Positions 31,106 through 34,342 of a stretch of DNA of 37,886 bases are shown in pieces; the first letter of the stretch is position 1, and each line of letters opens with the position of its first letter. The notes under the pieces were generated by a model that was not told where the DNA came from, did not search any database, and saw nothing but the letters and a program-made list of their open reading frames with translations. The stretch spans positions 1-37,886 of the IMG/VR virus record IMGVR_UViG_3300038405_000055. The stretch is one strand, 5' to 3'. The stretch comes from a virus. The position numbers were made by a program, and so were the translations under genes.

Positions 31106-31591
31106 ATGATTATTAAAGAATGGCGTTGTGCCGATCATGGTCCTTTTGAAGGATCTCATCCTATTTGTCCCGCGATGGGGTGTAGTTCCGAGAATGTATC
31201 CCGTGAGTTTCGAACGGCTCCCGGGTTTAAATCGGATATGACAAAAGCTACTGATGGTGGATTCGACCGTATGGCTCAAAACTATGGTATGTCTGACATG
31301 TCTAATGCACATGGCCGTACCGTAAAAGGAGGTAATGTCGATCCTACAGCAGCTATCTGGGGTAAAGAAGCTATTGGCAGTCAATTTGATTCTATGCTTA
31401 ATCAAGCTTCTACCCCTACTAAATTTACCGCTAAAAACGGTAAAGAATTGTATGCAGATAATATGGGAATGCGTGCAGCATGCAAAGCCTCGGGTCTTGA
31501 TCAAAAACCGTTACCCCCCGCCACTATCGTAGGGGCTAAGTCGGATGCACGAGATCGAGCGACTGTAGTCAAGGAAGGGAAAACACGATGA
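31106..31591 (+). CDS. Zinc-ribbon-headed head protein
   Basis: 161 residues. WRCADHGPFEGSHPICPAMGC has C, H, C, C spaced for a zinc site; the remainder is helical and charged (KFTAKNGKELYADNMGMRAACK). Such proteins are common between TerL and portal in these podoviruses. Overlaps the portal start by 4 bases. Confidence 0.7.
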   Translation: MIIKEWRCADHGPFEGSHPICPAMGCSSENVSREFRTAPGFKSDMTKATDGGFDRMAQNYGMSDMSNAHGRTVKGGNVDPTAAIWGKEAIGSQFDSMLNQASTPTKFTAKNGKELYADNMGMRAACKASGLDQKPLPPATIVGAKSDARDRATVVKEGKTR

Positions 31592-33285
31592 AAATTCCAT
31601 CCGATGCTGCCGAAAAACTAGAACTATACCAACAAGTAATTCGCCAATGCTTACTTTCTCGCGAAGCTCGTATGGCTACCTACCGAGAGCTTAGATCGTA
31701 TTATCTTTTTGGTGCTGCAGAAGGAGCGATTGCGCCTTTTAATAAAATCCAGCCTACGGTCCAATTACTGCAATCATTCATCTATGCGGCAGAGACTACC
31801 AAGTTCAATATTAAACTAGGAACCTCTGTAGATGACTCGGAGTTGCAAAAAGTAGGTATTTTATCGGAAGAAATTAACGATCTTTGGCATGAATCGGACA
31901 CTGATCTTATTATGGCTGATGTAGTGGCCTGGTCTTTTGTATTTAATACCGTTCATGTTAAAACTATCTGGAATAATGGTATTAGGAACTACCTTGTAGA
32001 ACCGGATAATTTTGGCGTTTATCGTGAAGATGAGCCATTCCTTCAGCGCCAAGAAGCTGTGGTACATACCTATGCTATTGCTCGCGTAGAGTTGTTACGT
32101 ATGTTAAAAGATCATCCAAGAAAAAATGAGATCGAAGTACAACTGGAATCTGCTAATAAAGCACAGACAGATGACGGTTTTCCGTCCGGACTGCAGAATC
32201 TTATAATTACAGCCACAACCCCAAAAATGACTGGCCAACCAGCCGGAGGTATTATCGGCAATCAGGTACAATACTCTTATGTGCCTAATGTAGATGCTGA
32301 CCTTATCGAAATGTACGAATTATACTTATGGGATGATGAAGAATCTGATTATCGAATTGTTACTTTAGCTTCTCCCGGGATTATTATCTACGACCGTAAG
32401 AATTTTATTGTGCCCGGTACTCTTCCTTTCACTAAAATATGCCCTGAACCTTTGCCTTATTACTATTGGGGTCAGTCTTTTGCGGCCAAGCTTGTCCCTC
32501 TACAGGACTGGCGTACCCAACGTACAGAGCAAATCCGAAAACTTCTAGAACTTCAAGTAAAGCCTCCTAAATTTGTTAAAGGGCTTTCTGGCATTCCAGA
32601 AGAAAAACTCCAAGCCCTTTATCGGGCTGGCGGTATGGTTACTTCTTCTACTCCTACTGCTCAAGTAGAGAATTTTAAACCTGATATTCCTCAGGATATT
32701 TTTAAAGAGATCAGTCAAATTGATGCTATGTTTGAGGAGATGGCGGGTATTACATCTGTTATGCAAGGGAAATCAGAATCCGGAGTCAGGGCACGAGGAC
32801 ATGCGAATCTCCTCGCGCGTTTAGCTTCTTCTCGTCCAAAGCAATATGCTATGAAGCTAGAAGATGCCCTAGAAGGTATTGCCTATCGTATGCTTCGCTT
32901 ATTCCAGATAAACTCAGATAAAACATATAATCTTCCCGGCGTTGACGGAAATCTCACCGACGCAGTATTTATTGCTAACCAATTCACTAAAGATTTTTCA
33001 GTGAAAGTAGACGCTCATTCTTCTTCTCCTATATTTGCTGAGGATCATAAATCTGATATGATCGAACTGTTTAAAGCTCAGGCAGTGGATAGAGAAACGC
33101 TTCTGTCGGCATTTGACCCGCCCAACTTGCAAGTCTTGAAAAAGCAGCTTAGAATTAGAGAGGAAAAAGAAGCGCAAACGCAACAGCAAATGCAGATGGC
33201 GGCAGCTTCGCAAAAAGAATCTGGCGATAAAAAAGGCGCAAATGATCTAGCCAATCGCCGTGCTCTAGATCAATCAGGCAGTTGA
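31588..33285 (+). CDS. Portal protein
   Basis: 565 residues. The N-terminus (LYQQVIRQCLLSREARMATYRELRSYY) and the stem/wing pattern (VKTIWNNGIRNYLVEPDNFGVYRED; PYYYWGQSFAAKLVPLQDWRTQRTEQIRKLL) match podovirus portals. The C-terminus is a Q-rich helix (EEKEAQTQQQMQMAAAS) like a portal barrel. Dodecameric channel for DNA. It overlaps the previous gene by 4 bases (ATGA). Confidence 0.88.
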   Translation: MKIPSDAAEKLELYQQVIRQCLLSREARMATYRELRSYYLFGAAEGAIAPFNKIQPTVQLLQSFIYAAETTKFNIKLGTSVDDSELQKVGILSEEINDLWHESDTDLIMADVVAWSFVFNTVHVKTIWNNGIRNYLVEPDNFGVYREDEPFLQRQEAVVHTYAIARVELLRMLKDHPRKNEIEVQLESANKAQTDDGFPSGLQNLIITATTPKMTGQPAGGIIGNQVQYSYVPNVDADLIEMYELYLWDDEESDYRIVTLASPGIIIYDRKNFIVPGTLPFTKICPEPLPYYYWGQSFAAKLVPLQDWRTQRTEQIRKLLELQVKPPKFVKGLSGIPEEKLQALYRAGGMVTSSTPTAQVENFKPDIPQDIFKEISQIDAMFEEMAGITSVMQGKSESGVRARGHANLLARLASSRPKQYAMKLEDALEGIAYRMLRLFQINSDKTYNLPGVDGNLTDAVFIANQFTKDFSVKVDAHSSSPIFAEDHKSDMIELFKAQAVDRETLLSAFDPPNLQVLKKQLRIREEKEAQTQQQMQMAAASQKESGDKKGANDLANRRALDQSGS

Positions 33286-33336
33286 TGGTGATGCCGTCAC
33301 ACCCCGTTAGGCGGCAAGCAAAAGGAGGCCCAAAAA

Positions 33337-33372
33337 ATGGCTCGTAAGCATCGCAAGACCCATCGTAAGTAA
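33337..33372 (+). CDS. Micro-ORF 1: MARKHRKTHRK
   Basis: 11 codons with a perfect AAAGGAGG eight bases before ATG. Eight of eleven residues are Arg, Lys or His; none is acidic. It ends just before the terminator at 33402. Such a strong ribosome site on so short an ORF argues for translation. See the linked micro-ORFs. Confidence 0.6.
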   Translation: MARKHRKTHRK

Positions 33373-33401
33373 GCTGGCCCTCTACGGGGTATACTAATCA
33401 C

Positions 33402-33429
33402 AGAGGGGCATTAATTTGCCCCTCTTTTT
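33402..33429 (+). terminator. Strong intrinsic terminator inside the head cluster
   Basis: Perfect 8-bp stem AGAGGGGC / GCCCCTCT, loop ATTAATTT, then TTTTC. It lies between micro-ORF 1 and micro-ORF 2, so portal and capsid transcripts are separated. Confidence 0.88.
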
Positions 33430-33444
33430 CTAGGGGTATATAAT
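33416..33444 (+). promoter_or_regulatory. Near-consensus sigma70 promoter for scaffold/coat genes
   Basis: TTGCCC (33416-33421), 17-base spacer, TATAAT (33439-33444). The -35 sits in the terminator stem and the -10 overlaps the ATG of micro-ORF 2 (33443). It would restart transcription for micro-ORFs 3-6, scaffold and coat. Confidence 0.65.
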
Positions 33445-33499
33445 GGCATCAGGACATACTGGATATAGACATAATAAAAAACGAAAGGGGAGAAAATAA
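33443..33499 (+). CDS. Micro-ORF 2: MASGHTGYRHNKKRKGRK
   Basis: 18 residues, net +7, no acidic residue. AGGGG six bases before ATG. Because the ATG overlaps the promoter's -10, it can be translated only from readthrough transcripts. Confidence 0.5.
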   Translation: MASGHTGYRHNKKRKGRK

Positions 33500-33501
33500 T
33501 C

Positions 33502-33555
33502 ATGGCTGTAGGACACGCAAAAGGTCGAGCTAAAATCCGACGTCAGAGGTCTTAA
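33502..33555 (+). CDS. Micro-ORF 3: MAVGHAKGRAKIRRQRS
   Basis: 17 residues, net +6, no acidic residue. GGGGAG nine bases before ATG. Shares the G-H-A/T start with ORFs 2 and 4. Confidence 0.6.
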   Translation: MAVGHAKGRAKIRRQRS

Positions 33556-33557
33556 TT

Positions 33558-33617
33558 ATGGCTTCTTCCGGACATGCTGGTAAATCCAGAGGTAAAGCGC
33601 GATACAAGAGGAAATAG
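33558..33617 (+). CDS. Micro-ORF 4: MASSGHAGKSRGKARYKRK
   Basis: 19 residues, net +7, no acidic residue. AGAGG eight bases before ATG, two bases after ORF 3's stop. Confidence 0.6.
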   Translation: MASSGHAGKSRGKARYKRK

Positions 33618-33621
33618 TTAT

Positions 33622-33672
33622 ATGGCTCAAGGAAAAGCTAAGCGAGGCAAGGCCCGCCGAACTCGTAACTAG
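33622..33672 (+). CDS. Micro-ORF 5: MAQGKAKRGKARRTRN
   Basis: 16 residues, net +7, no acidic residue. GAGG ten bases before ATG, 4 bases after ORF 4's stop. Resembles ORF 3 without His. Confidence 0.6.
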   Translation: MAQGKAKRGKARRTRN

Positions 33673-33681
33673 GAGATAATT

Positions 33682-33759
33682 ATGTTTGTTACTGGAAAGC
33701 ATGGGTACGTAAAAAAGCGTAAACATACCCGTAAAATCGAGCAAGAGCAAAATGGCTGA
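33682..33759 (+). CDS. Micro-ORF 6: basic 25-aa peptide
   Basis: Begins MFVTGKHGYVKKRKHTRK, then IEQEQNG; net +5. TAGGAGATAATT precedes ATG, the leader used by full-length late genes here. Its last 8 bases overlap the next gene's start, so coupling is likely. Confidence 0.65.
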   Translation: MFVTGKHGYVKKRKHTRKIEQEQNG

Positions 33760-34162
33760 TATGGATAAAATGGTGGAGCTTTTTAAGGGAGCGGGAAATA
33801 ATACCGTAACCTCTCTGCCTACTGACTCTTCAGATATCCTCTCAGCCGGAGATGATTCTGCTCCTCTTTCCTCTGGGATGGCCATTCCTACGAATAAAGA
33901 TGGTATGCGAGCCTCCGCTCGTATCCAAGTCCATCTTGCTTTAAACGTTCTTGGCAAGGCTCTTACCTCATTTGATAACAATGAAGATGAAGACGCTAAA
34001 GCTATTCTTTCTGTAATGAATAGTCTTGTTAGTAAATTTGGTAATACGCAAGAAAAAGAACTAGTTCCAGCTCAGATTATGGAGCTTGTAAAATCGGAGC
34101 CGTCGTTACGTGGCATGTCGGCTCAACAGCCCCAACAGCCTCAACCGCCGCAAGGAGTCTAA
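33752..34162 (+). CDS. Hypothetical head-assembly protein
   Basis: 136 residues. ADMDKMVELFKGAGNN, acidic middle, helical part (RIQVHLALNVLGKALTSFDNNEDEDAKAILSVMNSL), and a Gln/Pro-rich end (QQPQQPQPPQGV). Position between portal and scaffold; no family recognised. Confidence 0.7.
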   Translation: MADMDKMVELFKGAGNNTVTSLPTDSSDILSAGDDSAPLSSGMAIPTNKDGMRASARIQVHLALNVLGKALTSFDNNEDEDAKAILSVMNSLVSKFGNTQEKELVPAQIMELVKSEPSLRGMSAQQPQQPQPPQGV

Positions 34163-34165
34163 ATT

Positions 34166-34342
34166 ATGTCTGATTTGTTTAAACCTTCATCGACTGGCCG
34201 ACGTGGTGTTACTGATAATGCCCGCGAGAACGGTAATATCATTAATCCTCCGCGTTTCCCTGAAATTGGTGGATTTACCTCCACCAAACCTGTCCAACAA
34301 AATGGTATTCGTATCCGTAAGCCTGGTGGAGGTGCTAAATAA
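34166..34342 (+). CDS. 58-aa basic Gly-rich protein
   Basis: SDLFKPSSTGRRGVTDNARE then PPRFPEIGGFTSTKPVQQNG and a basic end IRIRKPGGGAK. AAGGAGTCTAAATT precedes ATG; its stop overlaps the scaffold start (TAATG). Extended, probably disordered until assembled. Could also be a head component. Confidence 0.7.
   Translation: MSDLFKPSSTGRRGVTDNARENGNIINPPRFPEIGGFTSTKPVQQNGIRIRKPGGGAK

Follow-up and report, generated by a model that had tools for sequence, protein, structure and literature searches.

The window analyzed here, by which we mean the whole stretch of 37,886 bases, is a virus record with the gene set of a tailed phage, in which terminase, portal, major head protein, family A DNA polymerase, primase, and a Sak4-like annealing protein were identified. 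Between the stop of the portal protein gene (33285) and the start of the next gene (33752), the interval is occupied by six micro-ORFs (Table 1). The next gene, which we call the scaffold candidate, is kept in relatives; PHROG and Pfam searches with it gave no match. All six ORFs that the first-pass annotation had placed between portal and scaffold are present with the charges it gave (11-25 codons, +5 to +7), and it was right that the first five lack acidic residues (there is no D or E in ORF1-5), that most have a good Shine-Dalgarno (SD) sequence, ORF2 being the weak one, and that three of them, ORF2, ORF3, and ORF4, share a start, M-A-x-(x)-G-H-A/T. Coding sequence accounts for 336 of the 423 nt of the array, the gaps between ORF2 and ORF6 are 2-9 nt, and ORF6 overlaps the next gene. 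Beyond the scaffold candidate, at 34166-34342, a 58-aa gene (MSDLFKPSSTGRRGV...IRKPGGGAK) separates it from the following gene and is kept in the relatives L002 and L003; a family search with it found no match.

Table 1. Features of the window from the portal gene to the scaffold candidate, with micro-ORF counterparts in close relatives (SD match, longest match to the anti-SD complement; pS and pN, comparison with L002)
Feature	Position	Strand	Description	Counterpart in relatives
Portal protein gene (upstream anchor)	31588..33285	+	phrog_1216, E 3.8e-10	Homologues in all anchoring loci
H-type RNA pseudoknot	33287..33316	+	P1 GGTG 33287-33290 / CACC 33300-33303; P2 TGCCGTC 33292-33298 / GGCGGCA 33310-33316	
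ORF1 MARKHRKTHRK	33337-33372	+	11 aa, +6; SD match 7 nt	MARKHRKSKRK (L002), MARKHRKAKRK (L003); pS 0.92, pN 0.13
Intrinsic terminator AGAGGGGC-ATTAATTT-GCCCCTCT + T-run	33402..33430	+	9-pair stem 33402-33425, T tail; folds	
Promoter-like TTGCCC-17-TATAAT	33416..33444	+	Overlaps terminator and ORF2 start; 10/12 consensus matches; weak evidence	
ORF2 MASGHTGYRHNKKRKGRK	33443-33499	+	18 aa, +7; SD match 3 nt (weak)	MAGHGQMKRKTKRHGRK (L002, by position); pS 0.73, pN 0.36
ORF3 MAVGHAKGRAKIRRQRS	33502-33555	+	17 aa, +6; SD match 4 nt	GHAKGKAKQRRLKRS (L002; TTG start); third micro-ORF of L002, TTG start, in the collinear list: LGHAKGKAKQRRLKRS; pS saturated, pN 0.22
ORF4 MASSGHAGKSRGKARYKRK	33558-33617	+	19 aa, +7; SD match 5 nt	MAASGHGRAKSGKSKNRQGRK (L002); pS 0.71, pN 0.23
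ORF5 MAQGKAKRGKARRTRN	33622-33672	+	16 aa, +7; SD match 4 nt	MTGRGKKGGKARKHSRK (L002); pS 0.95, pN 0.25
ORF6 MFVTGKHGYVKKRKHTRKIEQEQNG	33682-33759	+	25 aa, +5; SD match 5 nt	MFIIQKRHGESMKRRGGGHKGTKNRKGRL (L095, possible); none in L002, L003
Next gene, scaffold candidate (downstream anchor)	33752..34162	+	136 aa, acidic (-6); named by position only	

Under a strict ORF filter (ATG start, SD of at least 3 nt, K+R of at least 35%, net charge of at least +4), five window ORFs pass, while dinucleotide shuffles of the same stretch yield a mean of 0.096 and a maximum of 2, with 0 of 2000 reaching five. With an SD of at least 4 nt required, the + strand of the whole window holds one further match and the - strand none. 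Profile searches need at least 20 residues, a limit below which peptides of 11-19 residues fall, and the sole scannable peptides (ORF6, an L002 ORF of 21 aa, and an L095 ORF of 32 aa) had no match in Pfam; ORF6 hit one PHROG family of unknown function at E 0.047. The nearest relative, L002, with a portal 77% identical, has five micro-ORFs in the same order as window ORF1-5, and a codon comparison of these counts about 43 synonymous changes over 50 sites and 41 nonsynonymous changes over 163. Pooled, this gives a pS of 0.87, a pN of 0.25, and a pN/pS of 0.29, against 0.19 for the portal and 0.31 for the scaffold candidate under the same treatment, where the array ratio is only indicative because its synonymous sites are saturated and protein-based alignment lowers pN somewhat. 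By these values ORF1-5 are under protein-level selection similar to that on the adjoining head genes. The first-pass annotation had pointed to related phages as the place where its proposal could fail, and there the ATG, frame, SD, and K/R content are conserved. We consider the six ORFs very probably genuine genes overlooked by ordinary callers, as it had also supposed. ORF6 is the least supported of the six, because L002 and L003 have no counterpart, and ORF2 is also among the weakest, because it combines the weakest SD with the highest pN.

The phage group that carries such micro-genes is large and uncultured. Portal homologues collected from IMG/VR, GenBank phages, and genome bins mostly share about 40-45% identity with the window portal, and behind the portal nearly all loci of sufficient length carry between one and three basic micro-ORFs. 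Two types are seen repeatedly, ORF-A and ORF-B, with MYKxxKRGRKTRR and MARKARKGRKGRK as their respective typical forms; both are made of x-(K/R)-(K/R) triplets. By its position, MARK start, triplets, and pseudoknot, ORF1 is the window's counterpart of ORF-B, a match of features at 11 residues rather than a homology score. The strict automatic filter finds a micro-ORF in 72 of the 85 loci that extend at least 500 nt past the portal, against a background elsewhere of 20 in 639 kb (+ strand) and 6 in 727 kb (- strand). Inspection shows ORF-A or ORF-B in seven loci dropped by the filter (L045, L046, L051, L055, L060, L076, and L094) and a divergent micro-ORF form in L056 and L099, bringing the total to about 80 of 85. 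The module is not universal, since L004, L005, L093, and L105, among these 85 loci, are without it. In L099 (5837 onward), L056, and L040, a Met/Pro/Lys-rich variant micro-ORF (MYGKMPKPMKKPPMRDGKRS in L099) replaces ORF-A, and no ORF-B was seen there.

A search of IMG/VR independent of the portal, with a degenerate DNA pattern for MARKxRKGRKxRK, added at least 115 new loci. Among the matches listed, all 115 lie at the same place in the head genes: in 105 a portal homologue lies 213-467 nt upstream, and in the remaining 10, almost all of them on contigs starting immediately before the gene, a scaffold homologue lies 138-237 nt downstream. In the 13-residue set (20 distinct ORF-B and 38 distinct ORF-A peptides), Arg9 never changes and Lys10 hardly ever does, while codons vary at their third positions and CGN/AGR switches are present. 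The expectation that gene callers would skip such ORFs is borne out by the GenBank relatives MW202753 and MW202825, in which the micro-ORFs are unannotated. Annotated across the micro-genes and pseudoknot in these two records (L011 4740-5038 in MW202753; L012 5779-6039 in MW202825) are reverse-strand 'hypothetical proteins', which are probably spurious. A conserved gene of 51-54 aa directly behind the portal (L011 4573-4737, L012 5638-5793, and many loci of the group) is absent from the window; Pfam gave for it a very weak lead to T7 gp6.7 (PF17570, E 0.2, below the cut-off).

Among annotated phages searched at the DNA level, no relative was found. As better-known phages with the same arrangement we considered Mx8, Mx9, BUCT555, and a TM7 phage, which are relatives by capsid protein, and rejected them, their gene order behind the portal being another one. 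Further members close to the window clade were sought with the scaffold candidate and with a portal alignment of the clade; these searches returned only contigs already in the set and one ending inside the portal. The L095 contig, binned with a Paludibacterium genome, and the IMG/VR viral contig L227 have the same length and 100% identical portals, a match that gives a hint, short of proof, of a betaproteobacterial host for the window clade.

One base past the portal stop, the window has an H-type pseudoknot, GGTG-A-TGCCGTC-A-CACC-CCGTTA-GGCGGCA, equaled by 1 of 1000 dinucleotide shuffles. The same topology, in different letters, lies ahead of the first micro-ORF in L095 (AGGTG-AT-ACAAGG-CACCT-CAGTT-CCTTGT; 8 of 1000 shuffles as good), in L002 (TTGCG-AA-GATAGGG-CGCAA-TGTC-CCGTATC; 3 of 1000), and, more weakly, in L003 (51 of 1000). 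In the larger group a pseudoknot precedes ORF-B, for example AGGG-TGT-GGCTGCC-TT-CCCT-(A-rich 4-8 nt)-GGTGACC; its 3' end mostly lies 18-24 nt before the ORF-B ATG, just upstream of the SD, and about 20 nt before the ATG in the window. Covariation was examined in a sequence-only MAFFT alignment of 86 distinct rows with the structure taken from L011 and with the window, L002, L003, and L095 left out. Standard pairs fill 93.6% of cells, and both sides of a pair have changed in 97 cells, compared with 24 on average after column shuffling (none of 500 shuffles reaching 97) and 2-21 in slid registers; these shuffle counts should not be read as probabilities, because the alignment rows are related. 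Each helix passes alone (44 double-change cells versus 8 in shuffles for P1, 53 versus 16 for P2), with C-A or T-C mismatches frequent in the mid-P2 pairs. The variants are diverse in both P1 (AGGG/CCCT, ATGG/CCAT, TAAG/CTTA, CCGG/CCGG) and P2 (GGCTGC/GTGGCC, GGCTGA/TTGGCC, GCTGCTC/GAGTAGC). Four diverged loci (L006, L007, L025, and L091) have no convincing pseudoknot, and in L093 and L105, which have no micro-ORF, none was seen by eye in the short spacer.

Rfam had no family at gathering score in the window stretch (best E 0.59, at chance level) or in ten relatives. A tmRNA, in which a pseudoknot is followed by a short ORF, was rejected: ARAGORN finds none in the window or five relatives, and the element has no tRNA-like domain. 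A fusion of portal and ORF1 by frameshifting or readthrough over the pseudoknot would be possible as a one-frame continuation in L003 only; we rejected it because the window has a TAG in the relevant frame ahead of ORF1, and a ribosome reading through the portal TGA would meet another TGA one codon on. In contigs L100 and L104, binned with Saccharibacteria and Nitrosomonadales genomes, the pseudoknot and ORF-B stand before a different gene; the module is thus not tied to that scaffold, and it may move independently.

The order in the window is portal, pseudoknot, ORF1, terminator, ORF2-6, and next gene, and L002, L003, and L095 likewise have ORF1, then a terminator-like hairpin and, behind it, a set of basic ORFs that varies. 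ORF1 is set apart from ORF2-6 by the intervening terminator, and on this sequence architecture the array is two parts: a widely conserved ORF1, preceded by a pseudoknot leader and followed by a terminator, and a clade-specific expansion, ORF2-6. Of the first-pass description as one array of six, then, the six ORFs were real, but the division, the pseudoknot, and the ORF1/ORF2 terminator had been overlooked; its proposal of duplication and divergence fits ORF2-4 and the varying number of ORFs in relatives, and is a fit only. Promoter-like sites number 4, against 1.8 expected. Loci of the larger group run portal, 51/54-aa gene, ORF-A, pseudoknot, ORF-B, hairpin, promoter-like TTGACA, and scaffold candidate, and in 49 of 70 loci a TTGAC stands after the last micro-ORF and ahead of the next gene. 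Between ORF-B and the scaffold candidate in L011, L017, L035, and L075, a G-rich stretch with a conserved AAATATA-like loop, directly before the promoter-like TTGACA, can pair either with a C-rich stretch just upstream or with one just downstream; this element is possibly a bistable terminator.

We read the locus tentatively, with a probability of a little under two in five, as a micro-gene module of the head operon that encodes cationic nucleic-acid-binding peptides, the conserved one limited by a pseudoknot leader. Judging from their composition and setting, the peptides probably bind phage DNA or RNA while the particle is built. They would be unstructured cationic binders, made together with terminase and portal, that engage DNA (or mRNA) as the head is assembled and the genome packaged, in much the manner of protein J in phiX174. 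Co-production with terminase and portal suggests the role in packaging or assembly, and a pseudoknot just before the SD suggests translational control, for which the product is the simplest controller: the leader would limit synthesis of the conserved peptide, most simply if the pseudoknot were bound by the peptide itself, as the T4 gene 32 operator is by gp32. Of the roles that the first-pass annotation had proposed, packaging or DNA condensation is plausible for these peptides, and coating of the capsid is a conjecture. By our own arithmetic, neutralizing a 38-kb genome (about 76,000 phosphates, at +6 to +8 per peptide) would take thousands of copies, which makes a local or nucleating role no less plausible than protamine-like condensation. 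Across much of the group, the micro-genes lie upstream of the hairpin and promoter-like site of the capsid unit, so that their amounts may fall short of what bulk DNA condensation needs.

Known systems resemble parts of this module. The adenovirus core peptide mu, of about 20 residues, is rich in basic residues, has no acidic ones, and is made by proteolysis; it and protamine-like viral peptides are similar in size and charge to the micro-ORF peptides but come from an unrelated virus. Protein J of phiX174, which is small and binds DNA, coats it ahead of packaging at about 120 copies per RF molecule (PMC13386984). Like the micro-ORF products, the microvirus protein is very small, highly basic, and encoded among head genes, but J belongs to an ssDNA phage and is longer, DNA binding and packaging are putative for the micro-peptides, and we claim no homology. 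To our knowledge, phiX174 J has no pseudoknot leader. In T4, a pseudoknot of about 28 nt at the 5' end of the gene 32 mRNA is the site where gp32 nucleates on its own message (PMC535899). The T4/RB69 operator resembles the window leader (30 nt) in size and in lying 5' of an SD, ahead of a gene whose product is here presumed to bind nucleic acid; it differs in having a long unstructured A/U-rich stretch downstream that gp32 coats, and in serving a gene for an ssDNA-binding protein of about 300 aa. No UUAAA/UAAA repeats of the T4 type occur in the roughly 20 nt between the window pseudoknot and the ATG, and since these and the long unstructured stretch are missing, the window leader is not a member of the T4 gene 32 type and at most works alike.

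Other accounts of the same features have to be weighed. That the ORFs arose by chance in a K/R-biased spacer and are no genes is very improbable: such short ORFs are usually noise, but the shuffles, codon conservation, fixed location, pN/pS, and low background of the filter contradict it, firmly for ORF1 and ORF-B, less completely for ORF2-5, and least for ORF6. The peptides might instead be assembly factors that do not bind the genome but bridge the acidic scaffold candidate with the portal or head protein, or nucleate procapsids. Their fixed location, from the portal to a scaffold candidate of opposite charge (-6), fits this account, which we nonetheless think unlikely, given that L100 and L104 retain the pseudoknot and ORF-B before another gene. 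Short K/R-rich peptides are typical RNA binders, and the compact unit of pseudoknot, ORF, and terminator (about 140 nt in the window) would also suit a dual-function RNA, either as a stable small RNA or through a peptide that acts on host or phage mRNA or on ribosomes; with known RNA families unmatched and the location tied to head genes, we regard such a regulator as rather improbable.

Under leader-peptide attenuation, the main purpose of translating ORF1 would be control of the terminator that follows. The sequence CCCTCT at 33378-33383 is able to pair with the 5' arm of the terminator: a ribosome at the ORF1 stop would cover it and let the terminator form, whereas without translation CCCTCT would pair with AGAGGG and polymerase would continue into ORF2-6, scaffold, and capsid, the pseudoknot setting how often ORF1 is translated. 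The terminator adjoins the 3' side of ORF1, folds of truncated transcripts give the alternative pairing in the window (-12.8 kcal/mol), L002 (-14.1), and L003 (-12.8), and its 5' arm is within reach of the terminating ribosome in the window and L002. However, the fold of the full stretch favors the terminator in all four loci, L095 has no alternative pairing, and the frequent promoter-like TTGAC before the next gene in the larger group also speaks against it. Trp-type attenuators share with ORF1 a short ORF with an SD before an intrinsic terminator and a possible alternative pairing, but the micro-gene has no run of a single control codon, sits inside a head operon, and conserves its residues while its Arg/Lys codons vary freely, unlike control codons. 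We hold attenuation to be improbable as the main purpose of ORF1.

Returning to nucleic-acid-binding peptides under a pseudoknot leader, a fuller version can be framed in which a widespread lineage of tailed phages assembles its heads with self-regulated proteins of 11-17 residues: the peptide would bind the genome in packaging, the mRNA pseudoknot would sense free peptide and so match supply to DNA, and the window clade would have six such genes. This version we regard as doubtful. Small basic nucleic-acid-binding phage proteins are already known, as are pseudoknot leaders, and a literature search found no title or abstract describing these peptides; their combination, in genes this small and within the head operon of a tailed phage, appears to be new, overlap with small-phage-gene families (Fremin et al. 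2022) aside. Genes of 11-13 codons lie below every standard gene-calling limit, and a gene this small that encodes a protein conserved among highly diverged phages, in a fixed place and usually with its own RNA leader, makes the minimum size of a functional gene directly testable, with the pseudoknot as an added new RNA element. The module suggests that tailed phages, generally thought to package near-naked DNA, may use protamine-like or J-like peptides, and if their heads are indeed built with self-regulated proteins of 11-17 residues, these would be among the shortest conserved protein-coding genes known.
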